IMG/VR virus record: IMGVR_UViG_3300021197_001602 | Coordinates: 1-64,000 of that record | Origin: a virus | Length of the DNA: 64,000 nt | Direction: 5' to 3' (one strand) | Program-made: the position numbers and the translations under genes | The notes under the pieces: generated by a model | What the model was told of the DNA's origin: nothing | The model's input: the letters and a program-made list of their open reading frames with translations, nothing else | Database searches by the model: none | Shown: piece by piece, positions 739-63,449 of the stretch | Position numbering within the stretch: the first letter of the stretch is position 1 | Layout of the letters: each line of letters begins with the position of its first letter

Positions 739-1752
739 ATGTCTAGTATGCTAGAACAAGCTATCGTCGATGCGAAAGCACTCAAGGAAGCTGCCATTAA
801 AAGCGCAGAAACGGAATTACTCCAAAAATACTCAGAAGAAATGAAAGAAGCTGTCACTTCCCTATTGGAAGTTGAGGCTGATTTATCAATGGGCGCTGAT
901 GCAGCAATGCCATCAGAAGCACCTCCCTCATTTGCTGGTGGCGAGAACCTTTGTCCTTGCCCTGAAGATGAGGAAGAGTTCGTCGTTGACTTTTCACAAC
1001 TAAGAACACAAGCTGAAGAAGCCGAAGACGAAGGAGAGTCAATTGGCTCAGGTCTTGGCGGAGAAGAAGAATTCTCACTTGGCGATGAAGAAGGTCTTGG
1101 CGGAGAAGAAGACCTTGGACTAGGTGGAGAGGAAGAGGACGAAGAAGAACTCACTCTCGAAGAAAAAGCAATTCTCTCAGACATCTTTAATGAAGATGTT
1201 GTTCTCGATGTCATGAAAGACATGGTGAACGAAGAAGAAGATGAAGATAGTGATGAGGAAGAAGTAGAAGAAGAAGCTGGCGTAGATGTCGATGCTCTTG
1301 AGTCTGGCTTCCAGAAGAAGGAAGAACACCTTCAGAACACTATCGCTGAATTAGCAGAAAGATTAAAAGCTCAAATGAGCAAAACAAAAGAATACAAATC
1401 AGTCGTAGAAAAAATGACTGGTAGACTGGCTGAGGTCAATTTGTCCAACGCCAAGTTACTATATACGAATCGGGTTCTTAACAATACCTCCCTGAATGAG
1501 CGACAAAAGAATAAAATTGTCGAATCTATTGAAAGTGCCGTATCCGTGGTTGAGGCAAAGACTATCTTTGAAACACTTCAAAATGCTGTGAGCGTCGGCT
1601 CTGTTGCAAAAAGCAGAACTGCAAACTCACTTAGCGAAGCCGTTAGAAGAAATTCTTCACCTTACGCAATCCGTGGCAACGAAAGTGAGCCACAAAAGTT
1701 AAACGATGCATTCTCAGATAGAATGCGGAGATTAGCAGGCATCAATAAATAA
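739..1752 (+). CDS. Prohead core scaffold protein (gp22-like)
   Basis: This 337-residue, extremely acidic protein is helical at both ends: an N-terminal helix rich in Lys/Glu, a Glu/Asp/Gly low-complexity centre (residues 60-190), and a C-terminal coiled-coil half. Placement immediately before the gp23-like capsid gene, acidity and coiled-coil content match T4 gp22, the major core scaffold that is degraded by the prohead protease during maturation. The C-terminus carries RMRRLAGIN, and a related RMxxLAG string starts the acidic protein at 42336. The start ATG follows AAGGAG at about 726. The scaffold call rests on synteny and composition, not on a recognisable catalytic motif. Confidence 0.8.
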   Translation: MSSMLEQAIVDAKALKEAAIKSAETELLQKYSEEMKEAVTSLLEVEADLSMGADAAMPSEAPPSFAGGENLCPCPEDEEEFVVDFSQLRTQAEEAEDEGESIGSGLGGEEEFSLGDEEGLGGEEDLGLGGEEEDEEELTLEEKAILSDIFNEDVVLDVMKDMVNEEEDEDSDEEEVEEEAGVDVDALESGFQKKEEHLQNTIAELAERLKAQMSKTKEYKSVVEKMTGRLAEVNLSNAKLLYTNRVLNNTSLNERQKNKIVESIESAVSVVEAKTIFETLQNAVSVGSVAKSRTANSLSEAVRRNSSPYAIRGNESEPQKLNDAFSDRMRRLAGINK

Positions 1753-1778: not shown

Positions 1779-3746
1779 ATGTCTATTCTTAACAAACTAA
1801 CAGAAGGTATCGTCAATCGTGACCTTTCTCGTGATGGCGATGCTCTCCTCAATAAGTGGGAGAAAACAGGTCTTCTTGAGGGTCTTGACGATTACTCAAG
1901 AAACACAATGTCGGTTCTTTTAGAGAACCAAGCAAAGGAACTCCTTCGTGAGTCCAACACAATGCAGGGTGGCGATGTCGAAGGCTTCGCAGCAGTTGCA
2001 TTCCCAATCGTTCGTCGTGTATTCGGTGGTCTTTTGGCACAGAAGCTTGTATCGGTTCAGCCAATGAGCCTTCCAAGTGGTCTTATCTTCTTCATGGACT
2101 TCGTGAAGCAAGGACCAAACGCAGCCACAACAGGCTCAGACTACAATGGTGCTCCAAATAACCAGCAGCGTGGTGAGATGAATGTGCAAAACGACACTGC
2201 CACAGCTTCAGAGCCTTCGGTTTACGGTGGTCAGGTTAAAGGTCGTGGGATTCTCACCTCTGGTGCAGAGCTTGACCCTGAAGCCCGTGGTGCTGTAGGT
2301 GCAGGCAACCAAGCCCCAACACCTCAGTTTCAAGACTTGATTCAAGGTTTCTCAACCGCTCGTGCTCAAGGCGCTCCAACTGCTGGCGAGTGTGTCCTTG
2401 CCCGTGATGAAATCGTTCTTGACGGTTCATTGTCAGACGAAGAAGCTCAGGCTGTTCAGTTCGACCCAGACTTAATGGCTCGTTCTGGCAGCGAGCGTGT
2501 TCGTATTGTTCGTATTACAAGAACAAACTTCAACGCCATGCCCGCAGGAACTGGCGGAACTGGTCAGGCAACTTGCGGTGCAAGAATGTCAGGTCCAGAT
2601 ATTCGTCACTTGGCGGTTCAGGCTGCTGACGGCTCAACCCTTCGTGGCGTTTCCGATGTTGCTGCTGCTGCTGGAGACAATGTTGCACAGGTTCGTCGCT
2701 TGACTCGCCTTGTGACTGGTGATGGTTCAACCCGAGTTTACTCACACATGAACGACGCTGGTGTAGAATATGTTGAGTTCGTGATTGTTGGTATCGCCGA
2801 CGCAGACGGCTCAGCCTTCTCGACGGTTACTGCTTGTAATCAGGGTAACGAAGCAATGGACGGTCTCGGACTTGAGTTCGCTCTTGCCGACAACATTGCT
2901 GAAGCAACTGGTGCAACCTCTCCAAACCCAGACACTCTCGGTGCCCTTGTTGGTCAGACTGCATGGGAAATGGAAGGTTCAGTAGACCTGCCAGAAATCT
3001 CAATCAAGGTTGATTCAGTTGCAGTGACTTCGGTCACCCGTAAGCTGAAGGCTTCATGGTCACCTGAGCTTGCTCAAGACTTGAACGCTTATCATAACCT
3101 TGACGCAGAGGTCGAGTTGACTGGTATTCTTTCGGAGCAGATTGCTCTTGAAATTGACCAAGAAATTCTTGCTGACCTTATTGCTGGTGCAAAGGCTTCA
3201 AGCCTTTACTGGTCACGCCGTCCAGGTCTCTTCGTCAACCGTAAGACGGGTGCCGATGCGACTTCATTGGCTGCTCCACCTGATTTCACAGGTTCAGTAA
3301 GCGAATGGTACGAGACTCTCGTTGAAACTATCAACGATGTTTCGGCTGACATTCACCGCAAGACTCTTCGTGGTGGCGCTAACTTCTTGGTCTGTGGACC
3401 AGAGGTTGCAAACATCCTTGAGTTCACCAGTGGCTTCCGAGCTTCTGTAACTCATGATGACGACAGCGGTTCAGTTGGTGCTCAGCAAGTTGGTTCCATT
3501 TCTAAGAAGTGGGACTTGTATGTTGACCCATACTTCCCTCGTAACATCGTCCTTGTCGGGCGTAAGGGTAGCTCATTCCTCGAAAGTGGATATGTCTACG
3601 CTCCTTATGTACCTCTCCAGACGACACCAACCATCTTCCACGCAGATGACTTCACTCCCCGCAAGGCAGTGATGACTCGCTACGGCAAGAAGCTGGTCCG
3701 TCCTGACATGTACGGTCTTGTTGTTGTTCGTGACCTCGAAGGGTAA
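1779..3746 (+). CDS. Major capsid protein (gp23-like)
   Basis: A 655-residue HK97-fold capsid protein, longer than T4 gp23 (521). Residues 91-99 carry VQPMSLPSG, matching the QPM-x-x-P-x-G block of gp23, followed by FFMDF. The C-terminal part (YAPYVPLQTTPTIF, then MTRYGKKLVRPDMYG) is typical of gp23. An N-terminal delta-like region ends with LLRE at 55-58, fitting the (L/I)-x-E cleavage rule of T4 gp21, so mature protein probably begins near Ser59. Within that region, residues 23-35 read LLNKWEKTGLLEG, which resembles the N-terminal tag on the 54-63 kb proteins. Start ATG follows AGGAGG. Central insertions (about residues 190-380) could be an added surface domain. Confidence 0.95.
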   Translation: MSILNKLTEGIVNRDLSRDGDALLNKWEKTGLLEGLDDYSRNTMSVLLENQAKELLRESNTMQGGDVEGFAAVAFPIVRRVFGGLLAQKLVSVQPMSLPSGLIFFMDFVKQGPNAATTGSDYNGAPNNQQRGEMNVQNDTATASEPSVYGGQVKGRGILTSGAELDPEARGAVGAGNQAPTPQFQDLIQGFSTARAQGAPTAGECVLARDEIVLDGSLSDEEAQAVQFDPDLMARSGSERVRIVRITRTNFNAMPAGTGGTGQATCGARMSGPDIRHLAVQAADGSTLRGVSDVAAAAGDNVAQVRRLTRLVTGDGSTRVYSHMNDAGVEYVEFVIVGIADADGSAFSTVTACNQGNEAMDGLGLEFALADNIAEATGATSPNPDTLGALVGQTAWEMEGSVDLPEISIKVDSVAVTSVTRKLKASWSPELAQDLNAYHNLDAEVELTGILSEQIALEIDQEILADLIAGAKASSLYWSRRPGLFVNRKTGADATSLAAPPDFTGSVSEWYETLVETINDVSADIHRKTLRGGANFLVCGPEVANILEFTSGFRASVTHDDDSGSVGAQQVGSISKKWDLYVDPYFPRNIVLVGRKGSSFLESGYVYAPYVPLQTTPTIFHADDFTPRKAVMTRYGKKLVRPDMYGLVVVRDLEG

Positions 3747-43421: not shown

Positions 43422-44603
43422 ATGGAACTAAAGATTGACCGCCTCAAGCAGCTTATTAAAGAAGAGCTTAATATTAATAACACGACTCTTATCGAGGAAC
43501 CAGAGCCCTTGGAAGAGAAGAGTATTATGAAAAATAAATATCCTTTCAAGGCTATTTTTATCTTCGGTCCCGCTGGTGCAGGTAAATCATTCCTCTCAAA
43601 GCAGATTGGGATTCCAAAAGACTTTGTTGTTTCAAATCCTGATGAAAGAATCGAATCCGTATTCCCCGCATTTGGCTTGAGCATGGACTTTAGCCAGGGA
43701 ACATTCGAAAAAGGTTCAGAAAAAGAATCTAGCCCAATTGCTAAGGCACAGCAGACCGCAAGAGAGGTACTTCAAAACGCAGAGCAGGGTCACACAGCAA
43801 ACATGCTTGCGATTGCAAACCCTATTGTCTTTGATACAACGGGAGAGAATGTCAAGAAGATGACTCAAAGAATCCAGTCTTTAATGAAGGTTGGGTACGA
43901 TGTGGCGGTCTTCATGGTTAATGTCCCAACTGATGTTTCTGTTGACAGAGACCAGAAGAGGAAGAGGACCGTCGGCGAGCCCACAAAATCCATCTCATCA
44001 CAATACCAGCGAGAAGTCGTTAAGGAAAGAAAGTATTTTGAATTACTTTCGGGACTTGAGTTCGCAGACATTCTAGGTGGGGATATTTATGCAAACCTCT
44101 TCGACCTGAGAACGGGAGAAAAGCTTAGTGGCATCACTGATGAGCATGTGGCGGCAATGAAGACAAAAGATGGAAAGCCGTTTACCGCAGAATACGCACA
44201 ATCTCTGCTCGACCAAGCCCGCTCAGATTTGAGCGCTTGGATGACTGCCGAGCCCAAGAACCCCACTGGCAAGACAATCTTGACGGGCATGAGGGCTTTA
44301 GTAAAGGATTCGGGCGGTAAGCTGGGGCAAAACATGTTGCAGATTGGACCAGCAGTTCAAGCTGGCGTAACTACAAACTCGGCTGTCATCGCCGCCGCAA
44401 AGAAGCTTGCAGACCTTGGCGGTGCATCAGGCGCACTTGCCTCAACACAGCGAGGCAAGAAAAACGCAGGCGAAAAGTTTGGCGTAAAAGACCCGAGCAT
44501 TCGAAACATGTCATCTAAGTTGGGCACATCTGACGAGAAAAATCTTGAAGAGGTTATCGCAAAGAAGATTGAAGCCCTTCTCAGAAATAAAATGAAAAAA
44601 TGA
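43422..44603 (+). CDS. P-loop kinase/zeta-toxin-like protein with N-terminal tag
   Basis: A 393-residue protein from ATG 43422 (after AGGAGAAAA). It begins ELKIDRLKQLIKEEL, a short amphipathic peptide with I12-K-E14, like a capsid-targeting tag with a prohead-protease site. Walker A is GPAGAGKS at 49-56. VFDTTGENVKKMTQRI and a RDQKRKRTVGEP lid-type region follow, similar to polynucleotide kinase/zeta-toxin folds that phosphorylate small substrates. The C-terminal 130 residues are Ala/Gly/Lys-rich. If packaged and injected it could act on the host at once. Kinase substrate is unknown. Confidence 0.65.
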   Translation: MELKIDRLKQLIKEELNINNTTLIEEPEPLEEKSIMKNKYPFKAIFIFGPAGAGKSFLSKQIGIPKDFVVSNPDERIESVFPAFGLSMDFSQGTFEKGSEKESSPIAKAQQTAREVLQNAEQGHTANMLAIANPIVFDTTGENVKKMTQRIQSLMKVGYDVAVFMVNVPTDVSVDRDQKRKRTVGEPTKSISSQYQREVVKERKYFELLSGLEFADILGGDIYANLFDLRTGEKLSGITDEHVAAMKTKDGKPFTAEYAQSLLDQARSDLSAWMTAEPKNPTGKTILTGMRALVKDSGGKLGQNMLQIGPAVQAGVTTNSAVIAAAKKLADLGGASGALASTQRGKKNAGEKFGVKDPSIRNMSSKLGTSDEKNLEEVIAKKIEALLRNKMKK

Positions 44604-44880: not shown

Positions 44881-44881
44881 A

Positions 44882-45610
44882 ATGCCTAGGAAGAAGAAAG
44901 CAGACGAAGAAAAAGCAGTCGAAGAAGTAGCAACTTCTCAGGACGACAGCGTTGAAGAAGAAGTTGAAGAGAGAGAGGACAATCAAAAGTCCATCATCAT
45001 GCTGCCACCTCTTATGGACTTGCTCGGCGGCGGCTCGGGCAGGGACAAGAAGATTCGCACAATCGGGTTGATTGGGGATGTAACAGAAGAGAAGGCTAGC
45101 GATGTCATCTATGGTCTGTTGACCTTGCGTGAAACTGGTGTACGACAAGAGTTGGAAGACCCAACTGACCCTAACTCAGAAATCGTTGAGACATGCGAGC
45201 CAATGGAAATGATTATTTCCACTTACGGCGGCTCAGCAATGGACATGTTTGGCATTCATGACATGATGCGAAATGTGCGTGAAGAGTGTGAGATTCACAC
45301 CGTAGGCATAGGCAAGGTAATGTCCGCAGGCGTACTCATTCTTGCTTCGGGAACGAAGGGCAAGAGAAGAATCGGTAAGAACTGCCGTGTAATGATTCAC
45401 TCGGTCGTGGGCGGCACACATGGTGCGATGCACAACCTTGAAAACGAGATGGATGAAATTCGCTGGATACAAGAGAGGTATATTGAAACTCTTGTTCGTG
45501 AGTCAGACATGACAAAGGCTATGGTTCGCAAGATGCTTAATAGAAAAGTTAATATTTATCTCACTGCTGAACAAGCGGTAGAGTACGGAATTGCAGACGA
45601 GGTATTTTAA
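44882..45610 (+). CDS. ClpP-like serine protease (S14)
   Basis: A 242-residue protein starting at ATG 44882 with a charged N-terminal extension (residues 1-35) not found in host ClpP. KVMSAGVLI supplies the nucleophile Ser148 and RVMIHSVVGG the His173, 25 residues apart as in ClpP. The position of the catalytic Asp (in RDRFLSAPEAVEYG of ClpP) reads VNIYLTAEQAVEYG, with Asn in place of Asp. IISTYGGSAMDMF is the oxyanion region. It may be the prohead maturation protease, which would fit an (L/I)xE-type tag, or a general protease; no gp21 homologue is in the window. Confidence 0.8.
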   Translation: MPRKKKADEEKAVEEVATSQDDSVEEEVEEREDNQKSIIMLPPLMDLLGGGSGRDKKIRTIGLIGDVTEEKASDVIYGLLTLRETGVRQELEDPTDPNSEIVETCEPMEMIISTYGGSAMDMFGIHDMMRNVREECEIHTVGIGKVMSAGVLILASGTKGKRRIGKNCRVMIHSVVGGTHGAMHNLENEMDEIRWIQERYIETLVRESDMTKAMVRKMLNRKVNIYLTAEQAVEYGIADEVF

Positions 45611-47267: not shown

Positions 47268-48848
47268 ATGAGCAAGGTATATGATTCTAACCTATCGTTA
47301 ATTAAAAAAATCGCTACAGGTGTCAACAGTTTGGCTGACAATGTAGGCGCAACACTTGGACCAAAAGGTCGCAATGTTATTTTACAAAAGGCTGGAGAAA
47401 GACCAGTCATTACAAAGGATGGCGTAACTGTTGCGTCTTTTGTTTCCTTTGAAGACCCCTTTGAGAACCTTGGTGCTCAGGTCGTCAAGCAAGCCTCACA
47501 GGTTACTGCTGACGAAGCTGGCGACGGCACAACGACATCTACGATGGTTGCTAGAGGCATCGTCGAGGGTGCCACAAGGCACTTGATTGCTGGAGTCTCC
47601 CCTATAGAAATTAAGAGAGGCATTGACAAGACTACAGAATCTCTTCTGGAGCACCTCTCTGATGAGGCAACGCCTCTTAAGTCTTTTGAGCAAGTTAATC
47701 ATGTTGCAGTTGTTTCTGCCAATGGCGACCAGAAGCTCGGTGGCTTAATCGCTCAAGCGGTCGACCAAGTTGGGAAACACGGTGCGATTACAATCGAGCC
47801 AGCAAACTCTCACGAGACAACGCTTGAGCTTATCGAAGGGTTCCAGTTCGATGCTGGATATTTATCAAATACTTTCGTCACTGATAGGCGGCGGTGGACG
47901 ATGCGACAAGAGAATGCATTGGTCTTGGTTTACGATGGAACCATATCAGCAGTGGAAGAGATTTTCCCAGTTCTTCAGATTGTAGCGAGGGAAGGTCGAG
48001 CGCTGACCGTGGTTGCAGAGGATGTAAAAGACCAGGCTCTTGCAGCTTTGATTGCCAATGTTTCTCGTGGCTCAATGAAGGTCGCAGCGATTAAAGCCCC
48101 AGGATACGGAGAGGAGCGCCGAGCCTGTCTATCAGACTTGGCTCTATCGACTGGAGCGACCTTCGTTGGTCCAGCCAACGGAGTTACACTGACAAATACT
48201 AAGTTAAGTGACTTGGGAACTTGCGCCACAATTGAGGCAAAGAAGAATTGGTCAACCTTCGTCGGCGGCAAAGGCGACGGCGATGCAATTGAGCAAAGAA
48301 TTGAAGAGTTAAAAGAAGAAATCAAACAAACTCCTTCAATGAAAGAATGTGAAGCGATTCAGAGACGAATTAATCGACTCGCCAGCGGGATTGGAATCAT
48401 CAAGGTTGGTGGCACAACTGAGGTCGAAATGATGGAAGCTCTGCACAGGGCTGACGATGCCCTTAAGGCGGTTAAGTCTGCTCAAGAGCAGGGTGTTACC
48501 CTTGGTGGCGGCATGGCTCTTCTAAGGGCTGCTGTGACTGTTGAGGCGAACCCTACGACAGCACTCACCCAAGCTGAGCTTGTTGGGCGTCAGATTGTCA
48601 TTGATGCCTGTAAAGAACCAATCCGCCAGATGTGTGCCAATGCAGGTACTTCCGCCGATGTCATGATTAAAACCTTGACAGAGGTCGAGGACGGCTATGG
48701 ATACGACTTTGCAACTGGTGCTGTAGTTAATATGCTGGAGTCTGGAATTATTGACCCAGTAAAAGTAACAAAAACTGCCCTTACGAATGCTGTGTCCGCA
48801 GCGGGCATACTTATTACAACTTCTCACGGGATTGTTGAGACAAATTGA
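47268..48848 (+). CDS. groEL: Chaperonin GroEL
   Basis: A 526-residue type I chaperonin. TLGPKGRNVIL and DEAGDGTTTSTMVARG (ATP site), an apical domain with FDAGYLSNTFVT, and KVGGTTEVEMME then GVTLGGGMALLRA are characteristic. The C-terminus lacks the GGM repeat tail of bacterial GroEL. It assembles heptameric rings and, with the GroES-like protein at 33703, would fold the phage capsid protein. The start follows GGAGGATAA. Full phage GroEL genes are rare, mostly in large phages. Confidence 0.96.
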   Translation: MSKVYDSNLSLIKKIATGVNSLADNVGATLGPKGRNVILQKAGERPVITKDGVTVASFVSFEDPFENLGAQVVKQASQVTADEAGDGTTTSTMVARGIVEGATRHLIAGVSPIEIKRGIDKTTESLLEHLSDEATPLKSFEQVNHVAVVSANGDQKLGGLIAQAVDQVGKHGAITIEPANSHETTLELIEGFQFDAGYLSNTFVTDRRRWTMRQENALVLVYDGTISAVEEIFPVLQIVAREGRALTVVAEDVKDQALAALIANVSRGSMKVAAIKAPGYGEERRACLSDLALSTGATFVGPANGVTLTNTKLSDLGTCATIEAKKNWSTFVGGKGDGDAIEQRIEELKEEIKQTPSMKECEAIQRRINRLASGIGIIKVGGTTEVEMMEALHRADDALKAVKSAQEQGVTLGGGMALLRAAVTVEANPTTALTQAELVGRQIVIDACKEPIRQMCANAGTSADVMIKTLTEVEDGYGYDFATGAVVNMLESGIIDPVKVTKTALTNAVSAAGILITTSHGIVETN

Positions 48849-54072: not shown

Positions 54073-54474
54073 ATGCAGAGTCTTATAAAAAACCTACGCC
54101 CGATTTATATCGAGGAATCTAAATTTCCAGTCTGGCTGAGCAAGCTGGTCCCTATCGAGGTGAACGCCGTGAGTATCGGACCCTTTGTATGGTGCCGAGG
54201 TATATTATCTACCACTACAAAGCGCCACGAGTGTATTCATTTTCACCAGCAGCTAGAATTATTGTTTGTAGGTCAGTGGATTTTGTACGGTTTGAGCTAT
54301 TTATATAATAGGATTATAAAGAGGATGGATGGTCCTACAGCCTATCGATTTAATGTGTTCGAAGTAGAAGCATATACTCATGAATCGACAGTACATTACT
54401 TAAGAGACAGAAAGACCTTTGCTTGGGTCAAATATATAAAGGGAAATAAAGAAGATGAAGCTCAAAGATTTTAA
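54073..54474 (+). CDS. Putative zinc metallopeptidase-like protein
   Basis: A 133-residue protein beginning directly after the previous stop. HECIH at 52-56 is an HExxH zinc motif in a helix, followed by a hydrophobic segment (LLFVGQWILYGLSYLY) and EVEAYTHE, a possible third ligand (Glu). A conserved cyanophage relative has the same arrangement. Membrane-associated protease is likely; target unknown. The end overlaps the next ATG by 20 bases. Confidence 0.55.
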   Translation: MQSLIKNLRPIYIEESKFPVWLSKLVPIEVNAVSIGPFVWCRGILSTTTKRHECIHFHQQLELLFVGQWILYGLSYLYNRIIKRMDGPTAYRFNVFEVEAYTHESTVHYLRDRKTFAWVKYIKGNKEDEAQRF

Positions 54475-55837
54475 AAAGCTAAATGAGAACTGGAGCCAGT
54501 GGGCTTCACAAGGTTACCCGTCTGGTCCGAGGGCAGACCTATACGATGCTATTCGTGACCACTCCTTGGAGAAGACGGGAAGCAGGGAGACTTATGGCAA
54601 CTTTGACAAGCTCGACGCCATGAACGACGAAGAGCTAGAAAACTATGCCACAGAGCTAATGCCTCAGTTGCCTGGTGATGAAGGTCCATATGACGCAGAG
54701 GCTGAAGCCTCAGCTATGAGAGAGTCCGCAGGTGGAAAGCTTCAGTATTCTGTATCCAACACTGGCTATGGGGATGTGTATGAATTCTTCGATGAGAATG
54801 GCGAAGAGACAGAGCAGACTCTAGGAATGATGGTTCTCGACTTGGCTGATGCTGGAGTCGGAGGCTGGGCACCCGAAGAACAAATTGATAGAATGATGGC
54901 TGTCAACGCAGACCCAAGCAAAAATCAAGGTGGGATGCAGAAGTGGGACAGCAGCGTCTTTGAAGATTACTATGGCGCAGACAACCAAAAGATTCTCCAA
55001 GCTTGGGCTAAGATGAGCGGCATGGAGCTTGAGCAAATGCCTGAAGCCGAAGATGAGTATGAAGACGACGGCACCAATGACTTTGAAGAATACTATAGCG
55101 AAAGCAAGAAGCGTAATAAAATTCACGAAGGGCGATATCATTTCGCAAACGCCTTCGACCAACTTGACATTGGAGAAGACCCGAGAGCACAAGCGCTCGA
55201 ACAGTGCATAAAGATTCTTAATGAATTAACCTATGACTCTTTAGAAGGTGATGTCGCATCCTACGCAGATGATGCTGCTCGCCTGTTGTGGAAAGCAGCA
55301 GAAGAACTAGATTATAAAAGAAATCAAGTGGGCAATGTTGAAGAATCAGTGGTCGGAGACATGAAGAGTAAGTTTCAAGATATGCTTACCCTCGGCGGCA
55401 AGAAAGGCAAGAGTAAGGGCGCTGGAAAGGGAAAGAAGATGGTAACGCCCGAACAAATTAAGAAGTGGTGGGGAAGCCTGCCAGCATCGGAGAAGCTGAA
55501 GATTTCTTCAAAGATGAAGCTTCCACGCAAAATAAAAGATTGGGGCGACCAAGAGTGGACTAACGCAGCAAGCTATTTGCTGGACAACCCTGTTGAAGAG
55601 GCACTCAGCCCAGAAGACGAAAGAGCCAGCGAGCAGGCTTATGCGATGGCTTTCGAGAAAGGTAGAAAGGGTATGGCAGTTGTTGATGTATGTAACGGCT
55701 TGACTGGTATCGGACACAAGGCTTGCTTGGCAGGACATCAAGACGGCGCTAACGAGTTCAGGCAGTCGCTTGCAGAGCGTGTGCGTCAGACTGTGGTGCG
55801 AAAACTTACAGAAGCCAAAGGAGTCGAAAAGAAATGA
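54455..55837 (+). CDS. Large acidic protein, candidate packaged protein
   Basis: A 460-residue acidic protein starting inside the metallopeptidase gene. The N-terminus MKLKDFKKLNENWSQW is loosely like the tag on the following genes but lacks the (L/I)xE site at position 14. Repeated acidic segments (EDEYEDDGTNDFEEYY), a basic linker with KKGKSKGAGKGKK (about residues 305-320), and the KKWWGSLPASEKLKI segment. The C-terminus GFGHKACLAGHQDGANEF-like region contains GIGHKACLAGHQDG. No enzyme motif seen. It precedes the tagged proteins by an ATGA overlap. Confidence 0.5.
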   Translation: MKLKDFKKLNENWSQWASQGYPSGPRADLYDAIRDHSLEKTGSRETYGNFDKLDAMNDEELENYATELMPQLPGDEGPYDAEAEASAMRESAGGKLQYSVSNTGYGDVYEFFDENGEETEQTLGMMVLDLADAGVGGWAPEEQIDRMMAVNADPSKNQGGMQKWDSSVFEDYYGADNQKILQAWAKMSGMELEQMPEAEDEYEDDGTNDFEEYYSESKKRNKIHEGRYHFANAFDQLDIGEDPRAQALEQCIKILNELTYDSLEGDVASYADDAARLLWKAAEELDYKRNQVGNVEESVVGDMKSKFQDMLTLGGKKGKSKGAGKGKKMVTPEQIKKWWGSLPASEKLKISSKMKLPRKIKDWGDQEWTNAASYLLDNPVEEALSPEDERASEQAYAMAFEKGRKGMAVVDVCNGLTGIGHKACLAGHQDGANEFRQSLAERVRQTVVRKLTEAKGVEKK

Positions 55838-57276
55838 AAAACCTACTAACAGAGTGGCGGAAATATTTGAAAGAAGGGGAGGAGTCGGACTTTAAAGTAC
55901 ACACGATGTACAACCCTGAAACGGGAGAGTCCGATGAGGCTCAGTCGGAAGACGAGCACAACTCTCTTGCAGAGAAGGGATATGTCCATGTAGACCCTGA
56001 AGCTATCAGGCAGACTCTTAAAGCCGAAGGCGGGGCAGCAGGACTCGAAGCTATAATGGGCGCTGTTGATGCAGAAGAAGAAGAGTTGCAAAAAGCTATG
56101 ATGGCTATGCCAGATGTGGCACAGCATGAGAATGGTGATTATGTCATGTCTGATGAAGCCGAGGTGGAGGTCAAGAAGGAAGCTGCCGAGGTTAAAGATA
56201 AATACGACGATGAGGTTGAGCGCCGAAGCAAGAAGACAATGAAGCAGGGCTTGGCTTTTATGAAGAGCGAAGAAAGGCTGCAAAGTTTTGTATCTTCGAT
56301 TATTGACGAGGTAATGTCAGAGGGTGATGAGTGGTATAGCGATGAACACGAGACGCTGGCTGACAAGAAGTTTGCAGACTCTCAGGCTTCAGCGCAAGAA
56401 GGGCAAGGCTTCCAAGTAGGTGAGTTCGTTAATGTTGTTGATGGCTCGCTTAAGGGTGCTACTGGCAAGGTTATTGAAATTACCACCACTACAACTGGCG
56501 AAGAAGGTTATGTTATTGAACTTTACTCCGATGCCAAGATGAAAGTCTTCGGGCAAAGAGGTGACGAAGTTATTGCTGTTGCGGGAGACTTAGAGTCAGG
56601 CGGCACAACCGACGGCATGGAACTCTACGACATTGACGAAGCCAAGAACGAAGACGGCAAGGAACAGGGCGTTGATGGCAAGGCTTGCTGGAAAGGCAAG
56701 AAGTATGCTGGTTCTGAAGATACAGACGGCGACGGAAAGGCAGACAAAGACAAGTGCGTTCCAATGGAAGAAGCTGAGTTGGCTGAGCGAGGCTCGCCAC
56801 TTGAGAGTGGTCTCCAAACCGCAGTCCAAGATTTTATTATAGAGCAGATGCAAAAAATGGGCTTGAATGCTGGCGACCCAACAGACCGAGATAGAATTAA
56901 AAATCAAGTCATGTCAATTGTCAGCACCGCTATTTCAGCCATTGGCTTGGACGAATCAAAGAAGGTGGACGACAACCTCCAAGAGAATGTTGCAACTTTC
57001 ATCGATGACTTCTTTATTAAAGAGGAGACTGACAAGGAGCGCATGAAGTGCAACAGCCCTCGTTACATTAAGAAGGGCGAGCCTGGATACGGCAAGAAGC
57101 AAAAGGTTGTTAAGGCTTGCAAGGACGGCAAAGAAAAGATTATCCGCTTTGGTGATGCTAATATGGAAAATAAGAGCGACAGCAAGGATAACAAGTCAAA
57201 CTTTAGAAGTAGGCACAATTGCGATGAGAAGACGGATAAGTTCTCAGCAGGATACTGGTCTTGTAAAGATTGGTAG
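55834..57276 (+). CDS. Tagged acidic KOW/Ca-type protein
   Basis: A 480-residue protein starting MKNLLTEWRKYLKEG, the shared tag with L12-K-E14|G. A KOW-like segment (FQVGEFVNVVDGSLKGATGK, about 193-212), a thrombospondin-type Ca site (DTDGDGKADKDKC, about 298-310) and a C-terminal conserved phage domain (KCNSPRYIKKGEPGYGKK; FRSRHNCDEKTDK then YWSCKDW) follow. That last domain occurs in structural proteins of other marine phages. The acidic content suits a head-internal protein. The ATGA overlap couples it to the gene before. Confidence 0.7.
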   Translation: MKNLLTEWRKYLKEGEESDFKVHTMYNPETGESDEAQSEDEHNSLAEKGYVHVDPEAIRQTLKAEGGAAGLEAIMGAVDAEEEELQKAMMAMPDVAQHENGDYVMSDEAEVEVKKEAAEVKDKYDDEVERRSKKTMKQGLAFMKSEERLQSFVSSIIDEVMSEGDEWYSDEHETLADKKFADSQASAQEGQGFQVGEFVNVVDGSLKGATGKVIEITTTTTGEEGYVIELYSDAKMKVFGQRGDEVIAVAGDLESGGTTDGMELYDIDEAKNEDGKEQGVDGKACWKGKKYAGSEDTDGDGKADKDKCVPMEEAELAERGSPLESGLQTAVQDFIIEQMQKMGLNAGDPTDRDRIKNQVMSIVSTAISAIGLDESKKVDDNLQENVATFIDDFFIKEETDKERMKCNSPRYIKKGEPGYGKKQKVVKACKDGKEKIIRFGDANMENKSDSKDNKSNFRSRHNCDEKTDKFSAGYWSCKDW

Positions 57277-57286
57277 GGGGTAGTTG

Positions 57287-57514
57287 ATGTTTCTTATAAA
57301 GCACTTGAGAGAAAATAACGAAACCTATTTTAGCCACTTGAAGTTCGCAGGAAGGGTGGGACTTTATCTTTCCTTGGCTTCAATTTGTTATTCGGTTCAT
57401 GCAATCTTGCCGTTCATCCCAATCCCAGCCCGTTTTAGTTTTGAGACTGTGGTTAACAAGTGCATTGCTTGGCACAATTATACTGTATTAAGAATGGACA
57501 CAGACGAACAATGA
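57287..57514 (+). CDS. DUF6356-type membrane protein
   Basis: A 75-residue protein from ATG 57287 after GGGGGTAG. HLRENNETYFSHLKFAGRVGLYL then VHAILPFIPIPA matches the DUF6356 pattern (short N-terminal helix and two membrane segments) known from proteobacteria and marine phages. Unknown role. Its stop overlaps the ATG of the GNAT-like gene. Confidence 0.6.
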   Translation: MFLIKHLRENNETYFSHLKFAGRVGLYLSLASICYSVHAILPFIPIPARFSFETVVNKCIAWHNYTVLRMDTDEQ

Positions 57515-58179
57515 AAAAACTACTAACAGAATGGCGGAAGTTCTTAGCCGAGGGCACCGACCCACGAATCCAGAAACAAATTAACATGCTGCTTGCTCTT
57601 CCAAAGGGTATCGGCATCGTTGGTGATTCTGAAGATTCCTTTGGCATGTCATTTAAGTATGCTGAGTTTCACGAGAATGGTTACGATACTCTTGGCGATG
57701 ATGGCAATGACGAAGGCATCCCCCATGGCTCTGTGGACATCATGGAGACGGAATCAGATGCAGAAGGTCCATGCTTCGGCGGCTTTACGGTCATCGGAAG
57801 CAGCGCAGCCAAGGGTTGGGGTCCACTTCTTTATGAGGTTGCAATTGAATGGGCTTCGCAAGAAGGCGGCGGACTGACAGCAGATAGATTCTCAGTGTCG
57901 GACAACGCTCAGGCTGTTTGGGATAAATATGGAAAGAGAGGGGATGTAAAGGGCAATCAAATGGATGTGAGCCACAACCCCGAAGGGGCTGGAGCAAGGT
58001 TGAACAAAACAGTTCCCCAGCTTACACCAGATGACGAGTCTGACGACTGTGACCAAGCCCGAGCTATATCAAAGCATGGACCCGACTGGCATAAAGACCC
58101 GACAACAAGAATGTATAAGAAAGATAACGCAGAGGTGATGCAAGCCCTCAAGGCAGCAGGGAGGCTGTTCATAGCATGA
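57511..58179 (+). CDS. Tagged GNAT-like acetyltransferase candidate
   Basis: A 222-residue protein starting MKKLLTEWRKFLAEG (L12-A-E14|G). The body (residues about 70-150) has FGGFTVIGSSAAKGWGPLLYEVAIEWAS with an acetyl-CoA-type G-x-G-P-L-L turn and a SVSDNAQAVWDKYGKRGDVK helix, a layout seen in phage GNAT-type proteins. I use ATG 57511; upstream in-frame codons overlap the preceding gene. If packaged it could modify a host protein or tRNA just after injection. Confidence 0.65.
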   Translation: MKKLLTEWRKFLAEGTDPRIQKQINMLLALPKGIGIVGDSEDSFGMSFKYAEFHENGYDTLGDDGNDEGIPHGSVDIMETESDAEGPCFGGFTVIGSSAAKGWGPLLYEVAIEWASQEGGGLTADRFSVSDNAQAVWDKYGKRGDVKGNQMDVSHNPEGAGARLNKTVPQLTPDDESDDCDQARAISKHGPDWHKDPTTRMYKKDNAEVMQALKAAGRLFIA

Positions 58180-58805
58180 AATACTTAATGGAAAATTGGA
58201 GAAGATATTTGAAAGAGGGCGACACAATTGCCCTTGGTAAGTGCTATCCGTTTGCCAATAGAATGGCAATGAAGTGGTCAGATGACAATATTGACAAAAC
58301 AAAGCCTCCTGGTAAGGGCGTCCACCCAGATATTGATAATAAAGATAAGTTTAAGGTTGTGCACGGTCGCATAACCGACAAGTTCAGTGGAGAAAGCGTA
58401 GACCATGCTTGGGTCGAGATGGGCGATTTGGTTTTCGACGACCAAACACAACACACAAAGCCAGATGGAATCCCGAAAGCCACCTATTACGATTTGTATC
58501 AGCCAGAAGTACAGGCAGAGTACACAGCCGAAGAGTCTATGATTAATTGCGTGAAGTCTGGGCACGAAGGTCCGTGGAATGAAGACCTTCAGTTGCAAGA
58601 AGCAATCACTCTTGACATTGAAGTTGGAGATATTGTTCTCGGTGGTAAATATAAAAATAAAAGAATTGAAGTAAAAGAGATTGGCACCGATGAGATTGGT
58701 CAGCCGACCATCAACGGCAAGTCTCTTTTAAAGTTTAGAATTGAAAAGCATCTTCCCGATGAAAAGAAGTCGAAGAAGACGCTTGATGCAGAAAAAGATA
58801 AATAA
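58176..58805 (+). CDS. Tagged Cys-His-Asp fold protein (transglutaminase/papain-like)
   Basis: A 209-residue protein starting MKYLMENWRRYLKEG (L12-K-E14|G). GKCYPFANRM offers a nucleophile Cys near 23, VVHGRITD and VDHAWVEMGDLVFDDQT supply His and Asp, the order of a papain/transglutaminase-like triad. A C-terminal barrel (VGDIVLGGKYKNKRIEVKEI, then INGKSLLKFRIEK) resembles a domain in other phage proteins. Peptidase, deamidase or transglutaminase activity is possible; the residues are visible but not proven. Coupled to the gene before it by ATGA. Confidence 0.6.
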   Translation: MKYLMENWRRYLKEGDTIALGKCYPFANRMAMKWSDDNIDKTKPPGKGVHPDIDNKDKFKVVHGRITDKFSGESVDHAWVEMGDLVFDDQTQHTKPDGIPKATYYDLYQPEVQAEYTAEESMINCVKSGHEGPWNEDLQLQEAITLDIEVGDIVLGGKYKNKRIEVKEIGTDEIGQPTINGKSLLKFRIEKHLPDEKKSKKTLDAEKDK

Positions 58806-58819
58806 GGGAGGATTTTATC

Positions 58820-58915
58820 ATGAAAAAGTTTTTACACAAGCTCGCTACACTGTTTGATACCAAACACTGTTGTTGTTGCTGTGGCTGCTGTTCTTGCGAA
58901 TCAGGCTGCTGCTAA
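58820..58915 (+). CDS. Cys-rich 31-residue peptide
   Basis: A short gene with a strong site (GGGAGGA). The product is MKKFLHKLATLFDTKH followed by CCCCCGCCSCESGCC: 10 Cys in 15 residues behind an amphipathic helix. It lies between two tagged genes and ends one base before the next ATG. Cys spacing would suit metal binding (metallothionein- or zinc-like) or membrane attachment. No homologue recognised. Too short for many gene finders. Confidence 0.6.
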   Translation: MKKFLHKLATLFDTKHCCCCCGCCSCESGCC

Positions 58916-59170
58916 ATGAAATTGATAATGGAAAAGTGGAGACGGTACACCACCCAAGATGGTGACCGTACTCTCACTCATTTGGTTGTTGAAGATGACG
59001 ACACTGAAGAGGATGTTGAGGAGGGTCGTGATTTTCAAAAAGATTCTTCTTACATCAAAGACCATGAGGGCAACAAAGAAGAATTAATTGGTGATGGGGG
59101 GCAGGACAATACTGAACCTTATGACAAGGAACCAATTAAAAAACGCAGTAAGAGTGCTCCACCCGCCTAG
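58916..59170 (+). CDS. Tag-related acidic small protein
   Basis: An 84-residue acidic protein starting MKLIMEKWRRYTTQDG. The W8-R-R-Y11 core of the tag is kept, but the (L/I)xE site at 12-14 is changed to TTQ, so it might bind the core without being cut. The rest is charged and probably disordered. No enzyme motif. It begins right after the Cys-rich peptide. Confidence 0.55.
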   Translation: MKLIMEKWRRYTTQDGDRTLTHLVVEDDDTEEDVEEGRDFQKDSSYIKDHEGNKEELIGDGGQDNTEPYDKEPIKKRSKSAPPA

Positions 59171-59177
59171 TTAATAC

Positions 59178-59363
59178 ATGGAGTCAGAAAGAAAGCAGAA
59201 GCCTTATCCATATAAGGCTGTCGAGTTTACGACAGAAGAGCTTGAGAAGATGAAAAGTATGGCGTCTTTGCGTGAGTACAATGTCTTTCATGATTGCAAT
59301 CATATAATCTATTCTCTGACTGTCCAGTTGATTAAAGAAAGGGCGGCAAATGAAAAACCTTAG
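59178..59363 (+). CDS. Small helical protein, unknown
   Basis: A 61-residue protein with ATG 59178. FTTEELEKMKSMASLREYN then IIYSLTVQLIKE gives two helices, similar in outline to small DNA-binding or toxin-antitoxin proteins. Its end overlaps the next start. No family recognised. Confidence 0.45.
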   Translation: MESERKQKPYPYKAVEFTTEELEKMKSMASLREYNVFHDCNHIIYSLTVQLIKERAANEKP

Positions 59364-59532
59364 AAAGACATTGAAGATGGTGTTGCTCATGGCAACTGGC
59401 GTGAATCTTGCACTGTTCTCGTTTGGGCTTTCTCTTGGTTCTTCAGACATGTACTTGTTGGCTATTGCCTCGGCTGTGTTTTGCTTCACTGGGTATGTGA
59501 GTCTCTCTCTTGACGAAAGCGACGAAAGGTAA
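59350..59532 (+). CDS. Small two-helix membrane protein
   Basis: A 60-residue protein starting in the end of the gene before it. Two hydrophobic segments (VLLMATGVNLALFSFGLSLG; YLLAIASAVFCFTGYVSLSL) with a short polar turn: holin-like in size and topology, but no other support. Could be a holin for the transglycosylase at 34002, or a membrane partner of the next gene. Confidence 0.45.
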   Translation: MKNLRKTLKMVLLMATGVNLALFSFGLSLGSSDMYLLAIASAVFCFTGYVSLSLDESDER

Positions 59533-59540
59533 CAAATCTC

Positions 59541-59783
59541 ATGGCGTGGGATATTCTATTGACATTCACCTTGGCATGTGTTATTTATATTCAATATGTT
59601 ACAATAAAAAGCCACAAAAGAAACATCTTCATTCTTGCTAAAAAGATTAGAGAAAACTCTGCAACCCCGCAACAGGACATTAAAAATTGGCAACCGAAGA
59701 TTATTGAAGGTGAGCTTGATATGTTCCACAATGGGAAACGAGCCTCTATCAAAGCAGTCTTTTATCCAAAAAAAGTAATTTAA
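59541..59783 (+). CDS. Small membrane-anchored protein
   Basis: An 80-residue protein with one N-terminal membrane helix (ILLTFTLACVIYIQYVTI) and a basic soluble tail (KSHKRNIFILAKKIREN). Could be an inner-membrane spanin partner or unrelated. No family recognised. Confidence 0.45.
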   Translation: MAWDILLTFTLACVIYIQYVTIKSHKRNIFILAKKIRENSATPQQDIKNWQPKIIEGELDMFHNGKRASIKAVFYPKKVI

Positions 59784-59833
59784 ACCTAATAAATCACGAT
59801 TTTGACCACTACCTATTAATGGAGGTGGGAAAT

Positions 59834-62176
59834 GTGATAAAATCTTTGTTTTTGCCGTTGATGCTCTTATTGGCTTCCTGTAGTTGCGGCGAAGACTTCC
59901 GCCTAATTAAATCCTGTTCTTGGAAAACCGATAAAAACATTGGCTGCGTTGGCAACGACACATCCTACGATGAGGTCGTTGGCGAGGCTCGCCTTGATGC
60001 GAATCTTGGCTCTTGTGAGGCTGGTACTCTTTCATGCAGAAGAAACTCCGAGACAATGGAGAGCTTCTGTGAGAGGAATCGTTACGAAGAAGAAGAGCAG
60101 TGCTACAATGAGTGGACGAACCGCTCGCAGTACGACACCGTTTGTGTTGGCTATGTCGGACCCAGCACTGAGTCGTGTCATGATGACATCGACAACGACT
60201 GCGATGGCGCAGTGAACGAAGGGTTTGATGCTGACTTCGACGGCTTCATGAGTGCCCACATGACCTCACCGCTCAACGGAGAACTCAAAGCATGTGGTGC
60301 AGACTGTGATGACAGCGACCAAAGTATAAATCCCGCAGCAGCAGAGGTCTGCGACGGCATAGATAATAATTGCAATACCTCTGTGGACGAAGGGTTAGAT
60401 ACGCCTCACGGTTCTTGCGAGCCAGACTTCCCAGACAATATTAACCCAGCGCTTCTCCACTATGGCGCACCTTCACAGTGCCGCTATGAGCCAGGGACTA
60501 TAGTATGTTCTGGTGGCGGACTTGTCTGCCAAGGAGCAGTATTCGTGGGACCAACCCCAGAGATGTGCAATGGGCTCGACGATGACTGCGATGGCGAGGT
60601 AGACTATACGCTTGGTATGGATGACGGTATAGAAAACGAAGGGTCGAACTGTGGTACAAATGTTGGGATATGCGAGTACGGCACGACCAGTTGTATGTCT
60701 CAGGATATGCAATGCATCGGTGGTGTAAATCCAATTACTGTGATGCCAGATTCTTGTGATGGATTAGATACAGACTGTGATGGGCAGACAGATGAAGACG
60801 CAGAGCCCAGAGTTTGCTCAAACGGTTGCCCGTCCGCTGGTGTGCAATATTGCGATAGCGGAGACTGGACTGTTTGTGATGCCCCTTCTCCAGGCGATGA
60901 GGCAACAGACCCGTGCAATGATATCGATGATGACTGTGATGGGGCAGTTGATGAGGGGCAAGAGTGTCAGTGCGACCCATCGGAAGTTGGACCAAACGCA
61001 CCTGATTGCAGCGCTGGTGAAATGGCTGAATCGGGTTTGAGTTGCGGCACAGCCAAAAAAAATTGCATCTGTGAAAACGGAGATTGTCAATATGGACCTT
61101 GCTACCTTACTTGCGACCCGTGGGTAAACGGTGCACCTGTTGATGTTTTGTGGGGAGCTTGTCCAGCCGAACAGTGCGATGGGTGGGACTGGAACTGTTA
61201 CGGAGACAACAGGGATGGAATGGTGGATGTTCCTTGCGAGTGCAGCTTAAACTCCCCAGTAGACCAGATTCGTGCAGCAGCCGCTCAGGGTAACGGAGAT
61301 TGCGAAATAGGTCAGTGCACAGCGGGCTCTCAGTCATGCGAGTTTGATAATATAACGCAGACTTGGAACATGTCCCCGCTGGATTGCGGTGCCGTCGGAC
61401 CCTCAGAAGAAGTTTGTGACGAGATAGACAACGACTGTGATACGGAAGTGGATGAGAACTTGCAAAGCTTCGAGCGTGTTGATATGGTATTTATAATTGA
61501 TATTACAGGGTCCATGGGTCAGGAAATAGAAAACATACGAAACGCTATCAGTGCCTACGCAGCCGACTTCGCACAGACGGAACACAGGTTTTCGCTGGTG
61601 GTCTTCCCAGCCCCATATGATGGTGACCCAAACACTTGGCAGAGTCTGGGCAGCCCAGCAACTCAGTGTGGTGCAGGGAACATAGGAAACCCAATCAATC
61701 CGCCCTATTTACCGTCAGCAATGCCCTATTGGAAGATGACACCCTTGGTCGAAGTGGGTCAGTTCTTGCAGGCTCTTGACGATGTTCTTAATATAGGTGG
61801 CTTGGTCTGCTCAGAGGAGCCCTCCTACGATGTTATTGATGATGTCTCCTCGCCATCTGATATAGCAAACATAGGCTGGAGAGAAGATGCTTACCCTTAT
61901 ATATTCTTTATCGGAGACGAAGACGCTCAAACCTGGAGGGGGCTTACTGAGAATGCTCTCGGGCAAAGAACGCAGACTTGTGATGGCATCGGTATGTGCC
62001 CTTGCGGACCACCCGACTGCGACCCAGGATACAATCTGCTGGAGTTGCATTGCTTTGTCGGCAATGTAGACGCTCACGATTACGACGGCGTTTGTATGTC
62101 AACGAACAATATAAATAATATCAGTGCCCCACTTCTTCGAAATATATTTGCGGATGTCTGCCTGCCCACAGATTAA
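59834..62176 (+). CDS. MopE-type repeat lipoprotein with VWA domain
   Basis: A 780-residue predicted lipoprotein. I start at GTG 59834, behind GGAGGTGGG, instead of ATG 59819 which would place the ribosome site inside the gene. Lipobox LASC has Cys16. Six D-x-D-N-D-C-D-G-like units (DDIDNDCDGAVNEG, DGIDNNCNTSVDEG, NGLDDDCDGEVDY, DGLDTDCDGQTDE, NDIDDDCDGAVDEG, DEIDNDCDTEVDE), the metal/Ca-binding repeat of MopE-like proteins, lead to a VWA domain with DITGSMG (MIDAS, D556). About 50 Cys suggest many disulphides. Envelope exposed; role unknown. It is the largest accessory gene in the window. Confidence 0.85.
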   Translation: MIKSLFLPLMLLLASCSCGEDFRLIKSCSWKTDKNIGCVGNDTSYDEVVGEARLDANLGSCEAGTLSCRRNSETMESFCERNRYEEEEQCYNEWTNRSQYDTVCVGYVGPSTESCHDDIDNDCDGAVNEGFDADFDGFMSAHMTSPLNGELKACGADCDDSDQSINPAAAEVCDGIDNNCNTSVDEGLDTPHGSCEPDFPDNINPALLHYGAPSQCRYEPGTIVCSGGGLVCQGAVFVGPTPEMCNGLDDDCDGEVDYTLGMDDGIENEGSNCGTNVGICEYGTTSCMSQDMQCIGGVNPITVMPDSCDGLDTDCDGQTDEDAEPRVCSNGCPSAGVQYCDSGDWTVCDAPSPGDEATDPCNDIDDDCDGAVDEGQECQCDPSEVGPNAPDCSAGEMAESGLSCGTAKKNCICENGDCQYGPCYLTCDPWVNGAPVDVLWGACPAEQCDGWDWNCYGDNRDGMVDVPCECSLNSPVDQIRAAAAQGNGDCEIGQCTAGSQSCEFDNITQTWNMSPLDCGAVGPSEEVCDEIDNDCDTEVDENLQSFERVDMVFIIDITGSMGQEIENIRNAISAYAADFAQTEHRFSLVVFPAPYDGDPNTWQSLGSPATQCGAGNIGNPINPPYLPSAMPYWKMTPLVEVGQFLQALDDVLNIGGLVCSEEPSYDVIDDVSSPSDIANIGWREDAYPYIFFIGDEDAQTWRGLTENALGQRTQTCDGIGMCPCGPPDCDPGYNLLELHCFVGNVDAHDYDGVCMSTNNINNISAPLLRNIFADVCLPTD

Positions 62177-62189
62177 TTAAGTTAACAAA

Positions 62190-62197
62190 ACTACTTA
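62190..62197 (+). promoter_or_regulatory. Variant ACTATTTA element
   Basis: ACTACTTACAGTATG, 131 bases before the ATG at 62321; one base off the core. Confidence 0.25.
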
Positions 62198-62261
62198 CAG
62201 TATGATAAGATGTTCTAGTTATGTTATTGACAACTGGAACTTCTCGTTGTCTTAATAAAAT

Positions 62262-62280
62262 CGGTAGCTTGAGACTACCG
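62262..62280 (+). other. Small hairpin
   Basis: CGGTAG and CTACCG pair around a 7-base loop in the leader of the 62321 gene. No T-run. It follows a TTGACA at 62227 without a good -10. Confidence 0.4.
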
Positions 62281-62320
62281 TGGAGACTTTAGACGAACAT
62301 TAGGTGCTTGGAGTTTAGAT

Positions 62321-62518
62321 ATGTGTATCATATGTGTAGAGCTTGAAAAGAACAGGCTTACTTTATTAGAAGCAAGAAGAAACTATGGGGAGATGGTCGA
62401 CTCTATCGACGAAAGCCATCGAGAAGAATTAGAGAAAAAGTTATACCCAGATACTATTTATGATGAAGAGTATTATGAATACTTTAATTTTATCAAAGGA
62501 ACGAGCGGGTCAGATTGA
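62321..62518 (+). CDS. Small conserved acidic protein with CxxC
   Basis: A 65-residue protein beginning MCIICVELEKNRLTLLEARRNYGEMVDSID (in pieces). The MCIICVE start and LEARR-x-GEM block occur in a family of small marine-phage proteins. A zinc or redox role for Cys2-Cys5 is possible. Carries the ACTATTTA copy at 62453 in its coding region. Confidence 0.55.
   Translation: MCIICVELEKNRLTLLEARRNYGEMVDSIDESHREELEKKLYPDTIYDEEYYEYFNFIKGTSGSD
62453..62460 (+). promoter_or_regulatory. ACTATTTA element within 62321 gene
   Basis: ACTATTTATGATG, 68 bases before the ATG of the tagged ART-like gene. Intragenic, so weaker than the intergenic copies. Confidence 0.35.
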
Positions 62519-62520
62519 TT

Positions 62521-63087
62521 ATGAAAAAACTATTAACAGAATGGCGTAAGTATTTAAAAGAAGAGGGAGAGGCTCCAGCAGAACAAGCTACAGCTTATTT
62601 TGATGGTGGCATCTATCATGGAGTTTCCCAAGCAAACTTGGATGGTCTTCGTGACCAGGGCATCGGCAACATGCCGAGCGAAATGGATATCGAGGAAGAG
62701 AAGGCAGGTGTGCCTTGTTCGCTCAAACCTCAAGAAGCCCGCAAGCATGGAGATGTAGTTCTTGAGCTTGACATGGAATCGATAGAGGGCTCTGGGCAAT
62801 ATATGATTTCCCCAGACAAAGAGAACGACCACGGAACCCGAATTACGATGGTGGACTCAGCCTACGATTCAGGTCACGGTGTTCACGATATGGTAGATAG
62901 CTTGGGCACGAATATTCCGTTCAGCTTTGTCAAGCGAGTTATATTCCCCCAAGGTTCAATTCCAGATGTTCAAGGCATGAGAGAGGGCGGCTTCAGTGGT
63001 GTAGAGATTGCAAGCTTTGCGGAGGACGAATCACAGGGTCTTGTCCGTCATTGGACCCCAGGAGATGAGTTGGGCGAAAGCCGCTAA
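62521..63087 (+). CDS. Tagged ADP-ribosyltransferase-like protein (Alt-like candidate)
   Basis: A 188-residue protein starting MKKLLTEWRKYLKEEG (L12-K-E14). After the tag, YHGVSQANLDGLRDQGIG (residues 32-49) is the opening strand and helix of an ADP-ribosyltransferase/Tpt1-type fold, in which the H-G-x-S motif binds NAD. The middle (VVLELDMESIEG; YMISPDKEN) and VKRVIFPQG suit the rest of such a fold. T4 Alt is a packaged ADP-ribosyltransferase of the host polymerase, so the combination of tag and fold is suggestive. The ATG starts two bases after the previous stop. Confidence 0.6.
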   Translation: MKKLLTEWRKYLKEEGEAPAEQATAYFDGGIYHGVSQANLDGLRDQGIGNMPSEMDIEEEKAGVPCSLKPQEARKHGDVVLELDMESIEGSGQYMISPDKENDHGTRITMVDSAYDSGHGVHDMVDSLGTNIPFSFVKRVIFPQGSIPDVQGMREGGFSGVEIASFAEDESQGLVRHWTPGDELGESR

Positions 63088-63104: not shown

Positions 63105-63449
63105 GTGTTAATAACTCGCCACGAAAACGATATCGCTATTGGCGACCTAGTGAAGCTCAAGGATGATGAAGATACCGCAGTGGGTTTTGGAATCGTCCTT
63201 GATGTGAGGACCGACACTTATGATATGGCGGTAGCACTGATACAGAATTTTAATGACTATATGTCTGCCGTCGATGAGGGCTTCGAACCAGAGGAAATAA
63301 CGGATGCAGAGAGAGAACTGCTTCAAACACCAGTATATCTCATCCTTTGGCACTCCACGGATGGGCACACATTTAGTTCACGACCGATATGGATGTACCA
63401 CTCAGAAATAACAGTTATTAGCAAGGCAATAAGAAAACTCACTGACTAA
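63105..63449 (+). CDS. Small barrel protein, unknown
   Basis: A 114-residue protein from GTG 63105 behind GGGAGCGG. IAIGDLVKLKDDED, GFGIVLDVR and VYLILWHSTDGHTF then PIWMYHSEITVIS form a strand-rich KOW-like pattern known from small marine-phage proteins. Role unknown. Confidence 0.5.
   Translation: MLITRHENDIAIGDLVKLKDDEDTAVGFGIVLDVRTDTYDMAVALIQNFNDYMSAVDEGFEPEEITDAERELLQTPVYLILWHSTDGHTFSSRPIWMYHSEITVISKAIRKLTD

Follow-up and report, generated by a model that had tools for sequence, protein, structure and literature searches.

In encapsulins, cargo is loaded by short peptides, most of them at the C-terminus, that attach to the shell itself and stay uncut. In phage T4, a short N-terminal capsid-targeting sequence (CTS) is reportedly carried by the internal proteins (IPs) IPI, IPII and IPIII, and also by Alt (Mullaney and Black 1996). 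Suppressor mutants of T4 place targeting mainly at residues 4 and 7 of this sequence and processing at residues 8 and 10, and Asp in place of the final Glu still permits targeting but prevents cutting; a review of T4 head assembly has suggested that T4-like phages may use the CTS to carry a variety of proteins into the capsid (PMC9026906). In phages phiKZ and SPN3US, inner head proteins carry N-terminal propeptides that are removed after Glu by a distant homologue of gp21 (PMC5694885). Here, we describe a 14-residue N-terminal peptide (the class A tag) shared by four genes in a 64,000-base stretch of viral DNA (hereafter the window), which makes up the first 64,000 bases of the 79,635-base IMG/VR record IMGVR_UViG_3300021197_001602, itself a fragment. 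A Pfam match (E 1e-71) identifies the product of 1779-3746 as a Gp23 capsid protein, indicating an uncultured phage of the T4 type. Its nearest isolated relatives by capsid protein are T4-superfamily phages such as Flavobacterium phage immuto (NC_055915), Microcystis phage Mel-JY01 and Rhodothermus phage RM378. We consider it very likely that the tag is a T4-like CTS that the prohead protease removes by cutting after (L/I/V)-x-E, and that it serves as the standard prefix of many injected proteins.

A shared N-terminal peptide on unrelated genes

The four starts of the form MKxL(L/M)x(E/N)WRx(Y/F)LxE that an initial annotation of the window had listed at 55834, 57511, 58176 and 62521 were all present, and the sequences diverged thereafter. 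A degenerate DNA pattern of the tag matched the window at these four places alone, even with 3 mismatches allowed, and had 0 matches in 100 dinucleotide shuffles. All four genes lie on the + strand. The first tag (MKNLLTEWRKYLKE, 55834..55875) opens the gene at 55834-57276, encoding an acidic protein of 480 amino acids (aa) that matches phrog_7595 at its C-terminus; the KOW body assigned to it was weakly supported (E 0.01, below the Pfam cut-off). The second (MKKLLTEWRKFLAE, 57511..57552) belongs to a 222-aa protein (57511-58179), for which the ATG at 57511 was preferred over the GTG at 57460 of the longer open frame because conservation of the tag starts at the ATG. Ten tagged homologues of this protein were found, in some of which L-x-E stands at residue 15. 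Its body was weakly GNAT-like (best Foldseek E 0.06), and the fold could not be confirmed. The third tag (MKYLMENWRRYLKE, 58176..58217; gene 58176-58805) precedes a Cys-His-Asp domain, an L-x-E at the domain junction and a small C-terminal domain. The Cys-His-Asp residues named in the initial annotation are conserved in a relative (L242), and the small C-terminal domain stands alone behind the tag in three other stretches (L024, L040 and L100). The fourth (MKKLLTEWRKYLKE, 62521..62562; gene 62521-63087, 188 aa) precedes an ADP-ribosyltransferase (ART)-superfamily body, in agreement with the ART-like fold listed in the initial annotation: its predicted structure matched a tRNA 2'-phosphotransferase (E 2e-3, probability 1.0), which we take to be a member of that superfamily. 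In the predicted structures of the 62521 and 57511 proteins, the tag was modelled as a low-confidence helix outside the body, which folds without it.

Beyond the window, a first scan of IMG/VR with a degenerate pattern that required Glu at residue 14 gave at least 120 matches, compared with 0 for the reversed pattern of equal information content. One genome each of 84,980 prokaryote species yielded a single match, on a contig from a metagenome-assembled genome that carried several tagged genes as well as starts of a second class (class B, see below), and that looks like phage DNA. A DNA-level search for the class A tag in isolated phages gave chance-level matches only, and none was found in six T4-superfamily isolates with one mismatch allowed. 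In the open-access literature, we found no paper with the peptide or a description of such a tag. Under a relaxed definition, 342 distinct tagged open reading frames were gathered from the fetched stretches of the matches listed; among these matches, 339 bodies behind the tag fell into 138 sequence clusters, 86 of them singletons. The 14-residue pattern that was to be sought in phage databases ahead of unrelated domains was, then, recurrent. Pfam matches of the bodies comprised protein kinases, ART-PolyVal, GNAT, C39 and papain-like peptidases, zeta-toxin and other P-loop kinases, an exonuclease, an acyl-transferase-type hydrolase, DUF192, a HAD domain and others.

Certain bodies recur in several phages, as they would if the tagged genes were ordinary paralogues, a single family that had retained its N-terminus. 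We regard this as exceedingly unlikely given the 138 clusters and the many Pfam folds, which already point to unrelated bodies, and given that similarity stops sharply at codon 14. In addition, an untagged homologue starts exactly where the tag ends: the alignment of MGGNVFSSTAPIKKEHIK from immuto with the tagged MKLLLENWRKFLNE-GGNVFVGQTASIPKEFIE (L003) begins at residue 15 of the latter. Homologous bodies, moreover, have differing starts, with one member of the CPPATQDLELNT family (in L294) beginning with MNAFDLKKYLAEGKL, and with the nucleotidase body IYCDMDGVLVDF bearing an ENWR tag in IMG/VR contigs and other starts in HTVC008M, Melnitz and immuto. The unrelated bodies that had been proposed behind a common tag were thus borne out.

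The boundary of the tag was seen in the DNA. Across 317 pairs of tagged genes from the same stretch with unrelated bodies, DNA identity rose from 0.26-0.33 upstream of the ATG to 0.57-0.97 over +1 to +42, then fell to 0.33 in the six bases that follow and to background beyond. Where the amino acid was identical, codons agreed in 67% of cases in the tag vs 38% in the bodies. Codons more alike than amino-acid identity demands could indicate that the common start is a translation-initiation or regulatory element at the nucleotide level; however, similarity begins at the ATG with almost none upstream, conservation across phages is in amino acids and not in bases, and L-x-E shifts register, leaving such an element with very little probability.

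The conserved glutamate and T4 head assembly

To avoid a circular answer on the Glu, a second scan fixed residues 1-11 only and left residues 12 onward free, and 93 tags formed the part free of the first scan's bias. Glu stood at residue 14 in 75 of these 93 tags, and (L/I/V/M)-x-E ended at residues 14-19 in 89 (81 when counting L/I only), compared with 5-13 of 93 in six equally wide downstream control stretches. Over the whole set fitting the second pattern, information content was 3.1 bits at residue 14, about 1.0 at residue 15 and 0.2-0.5 from residue 16 on, with residue 13 much freer (1.4 bits) than residue 14. In tags without Glu at 14, L-x-E was mostly displaced by one residue (WRKYLLTE) or by four to five (WRxYQxxVLxE). 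The same is seen in T4, where ITE ends at residue 19 in IPI vs IAE at residue 10 in IPII and IPIII. The proposal that the tag ends in (L/I)-x-E, the gp21 cleavage motif, held with the Glu left free, which either stayed or shifted together with its (L/I)-x-E.

W8 and R9 are conserved as strongly as E14, and the element is helical in structural models, both of which would suit a peptide that docks proteins on the prohead core or another virion structure, with the Glu as part of an uncut binding helix. We consider this improbable, as L-x-E moves by 1 or 4-5 residues while the Trp stays, and position 13 is free, which is what would be expected of a short protease motif. Moreover, L-x-E recurs as a conserved motif in propeptides, both at the N-terminus of the clade's gp21 (CQDLLTE or close) and in the gp23-type major capsid protein (MCP; 1779..3746, + strand), where LTE9, LLE34 and LRE58 (E58 codon at 1950-1952) are conserved in 81 sequences.

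The capsid-targeting function proposed in the initial annotation finds support at the sequence level in the register of the tag and in the company it keeps. T4 IPII and IPIII start with MKTYQEFIAE|A, and in an alignment anchored on the Glu, T4 residues Y4, F7, I8 and E10 fall on W8, Y/F11, L12 and E14 of the tag. One large relative (G004) has more genes with other leaders ahead of the same core, W-x-x-(Y/F)-L-x-E, e.g. MNFNNWREFLAE|A, which is very close to T4, and the core occurred in 0 of 688 internal control windows. Tagged genes with other leaders approach the T4 sequence even more closely, e.g. MNFNN-WREFLAE|A vs MKT-YQEFIAE|A. An S77 (gp21-type) protease and gp23 were both present in 12 of 12 tag-bearing records over 130 kb, a count that covers tag-bearing records alone and therefore speaks for consistency, not enrichment. 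In six loci, the gene right after gp21 begins with ...AWRxYLxE or close, i.e. with the class A core; in several others, it opens with LKxIIKEEL or close (class B). Tagged genes sit just upstream of gp21 in two loci (L255 and L261). These findings bear equally on the suggestion that the tag is an amphipathic helix that has nothing to do with the head and localizes proteins elsewhere in the infected cell, such as to a membrane, a site of replication or a complex of the host. Such a role would share the helical amphipathic pattern, and the enzymes could conceivably act on the host late in infection, but it is made quite unlikely by the agreement in register with the T4 CTS at four residues, by the occurrence of the tag core on a head-module gene beside gp21 and by the presence of gp21 and gp23 in all 12 records.

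If the tag is a CTS that is cut in the head, cargo proteins would be produced as precursors whose N-terminal amphipathic peptide, with aromatics at Glu-6 and Glu-3, would bind the prohead core. We propose that, with the peptide bound to the core, the cargo would be enclosed as gp23 assembles round it. The gp21-type prohead protease would cut after (L/I/V)-x-E, normally at residue 14, so that the mature enzyme would be set free in the head and enter the host along with the DNA. The tag would thereby most likely mark proteins as virion cargo destined for injection into the host.

Several observations weigh against capsid targeting followed by cleavage. Seven of the 138 cluster representatives lacked (LIVM)-x-E at 14-19, and a degenerate class A element in the window that the initial annotation had overlooked (MKLIMEKWRRYTTQ, 58916..58957, + strand; gene 58916-59170, 84 aa) is likewise without L-x-E at 14-19. 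The targeting residues of T4 are Tyr and Phe, and the tag has Trp at the first of these positions, albeit a conservative substitution. The tagged bodies are for the most part acidic, with a median pI of 4.9, in contrast to the neutral-to-basic T4 IPs (7.9-9.7), although Alt is near 6. No gp21 was found in the record that holds the window, which is a fragment starting at the gene in the gp22 position. A T4-type late promoter (TATAAATA) was not enriched upstream of tagged genes. Finally, we found no virion proteome or cleavage data for the clade; a Flavobacterium phage paper that we examined contained no virion proteome and did not name immuto.

Further prefixes and neighbouring genes

The kinase gene at 43422-44603 (+ strand), whose start had been grouped with the four tags, begins with MELKIDRLKQLIKEEL, in which I-K-E does end at residue 14. 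This start is, however, not a variant of the EWR tag and belongs to a separate recurrent element, class B (MKKSELKQIIKEEI...), with the tag MELKIDRLKQLIKE(EL) at 43422..43463. The P-loop kinase, zeta-toxin-like body was supported (AAA_33 3e-8, Zeta_toxin 1e-6). The class B start, MKKSELKQIIKEEIxKVLNE, was found in 118 distinct examples, and 11 of 13 class B records had an S77 protease. In one relative (G008), the roughly 206 open frames include 9 starts of class A and 8 of class B, and immuto (L271) encodes gp20, gp21 and gp23 together with repeated N-terminal elements ending in L/I-x-E, class B among them. The class B prefix (L-x-x-I-I-K-E-E-L) probably does the same job as class A for another set of proteins. 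A further recurrent start, MxNFDLKKFLVENKLTxNSxLL, was seen at 13806, 27631 and 28632 in immuto, and starts of this type, with the MNAFDLKKYLAEGKL start in L294 alongside them, likely represent a third tag class. It is possible, though we hold this rather doubtfully, that the prefixes form a plug-in cargo system in which enzyme genes newly acquired by the phage receive a near-constant 14-codon cassette by copying or recombination. Each virion would then carry perhaps ten to twenty injected effectors in a set that can change, with EWR and IIKEEL serving as separate addresses in the prohead core.

Directly upstream of the first tagged gene, a 460-aa protein (54455-55837, + strand) has a candidate T4-like start, MKLKDFKKLNE (F-x-x-L-x-E; 54455..54487), which we recognized from sequence only and which was missed in the initial annotation. 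In the 58176 protein, ...LQLQE|AIT... (about residues 133-142) joins the Cys-His-Asp and C-terminal domains, and in L242 the domains meet at ELPE|Y, which is also the point where resemblance to the window protein stops. A second L-x-E at the domain joint suggests that the protease may also split the two domains.

Upstream of gp23, the gene at 739..1752 (+ strand) is a probable prohead core scaffold by its gp22 position, all family matches being non-significant. In the closest MCP relatives (L123-L124), other genes occupy the stretch upstream of gp22. The gp23 propeptide contains a nearly invariant ALLxKWxxTGLLEG (MCP residues 22-36), where T4 gp23 has AELLNKWKPLLEGEG. The LLxxW within this motif is similar to the cargo tag and may be a common core-binding element. 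A motif like RR(M/W)xxLAG(I/M) recurs at the N-terminus of the 42336-42932 protein, at the C-terminus of the protein in the gp22 position and in the gene beside gp21 in L261, and is possibly another such element.

Between the tagged genes, 59819-62176 encodes a predicted lipoprotein of 785 aa in which DxDxDGxxDE repeats are numerous and one segment is von Willebrand-like. By eye, 40550-41605, 44843-45610 and 47268-48848 look like IMP dehydrogenase/GMP reductase, a ClpP-like protease and a GroEL-type chaperonin, which are unusual housekeeping genes for a phage fragment. Many small proteins (about 60-120 aa) of the form M(K)xGDLVxx... and of KOW-like look are scattered over the final 16 kb of the record, at 63105-63449 and from record positions 66193 to 78502.

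Comparison with described loading systems

The principle is not new, because a CTS role in T4-like phages has already been suggested (PMC9026906). The standardization, breadth and sequence read-out of the tag appear to be undescribed so far in the open-access literature. If our reading is correct, sequence alone would reveal which proteins are injected by a large group of phages that are uncultured and largely marine, any gene with a tag start being a predicted virion passenger. Hundreds of uncharacterized proteins, including kinases, ART-like proteins, proteases and nucleotidases, would become candidate effectors of the first minutes of infection. The targeting rule of T4 would generalize to aromatic-x-x-aromatic-aliphatic-x-Glu, and alternative loading tags would be available for protein delivery by phage heads.

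The features of the T4 CTS that lend themselves to sequence tests were all found in the tag: unrelated bodies, an end in L/I-x-E, agreement with T4 positions 4, 7, 8 and 10, and the presence of gp21 and gp23. As in T4, a short MK-starting N-terminal peptide stands on unrelated proteins, with aromatics at Glu-6 and Glu-3, an aliphatic at Glu-2 and Glu last, and it is hosted by phages with a gp21-type protease and gp23. Unlike the T4 CTS, the tag has Trp for Tyr, is usually 14 vs 10 residues long and is far more uniform, and it precedes well over a hundred protein families compared with a handful in T4. The tagged bodies, which are diverse and mostly acidic, do not resemble the mature parts of the T4 IPs (small and neutral to basic); no separate search for sequence homology to the IPs was made. 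Immuto resembles the window phage in having gp20/21/23 and starts ending in L/I-x-E, class B included, but the class A EWR/ENWR tag was not found there. Most propeptides of phiKZ and SPN3US are long, some exceeding 100 residues, and have Ser/Ala at P3, whereas those proposed here have 14 residues and Leu/Ile/Val; the phiKZ-type S/A-x-E cut site was not seen in the tag, in which P3 is mostly L, I, V or M. Like the encapsulin peptides, the tag would be a short generic peptide that sends unrelated enzymes into an HK97-fold shell.

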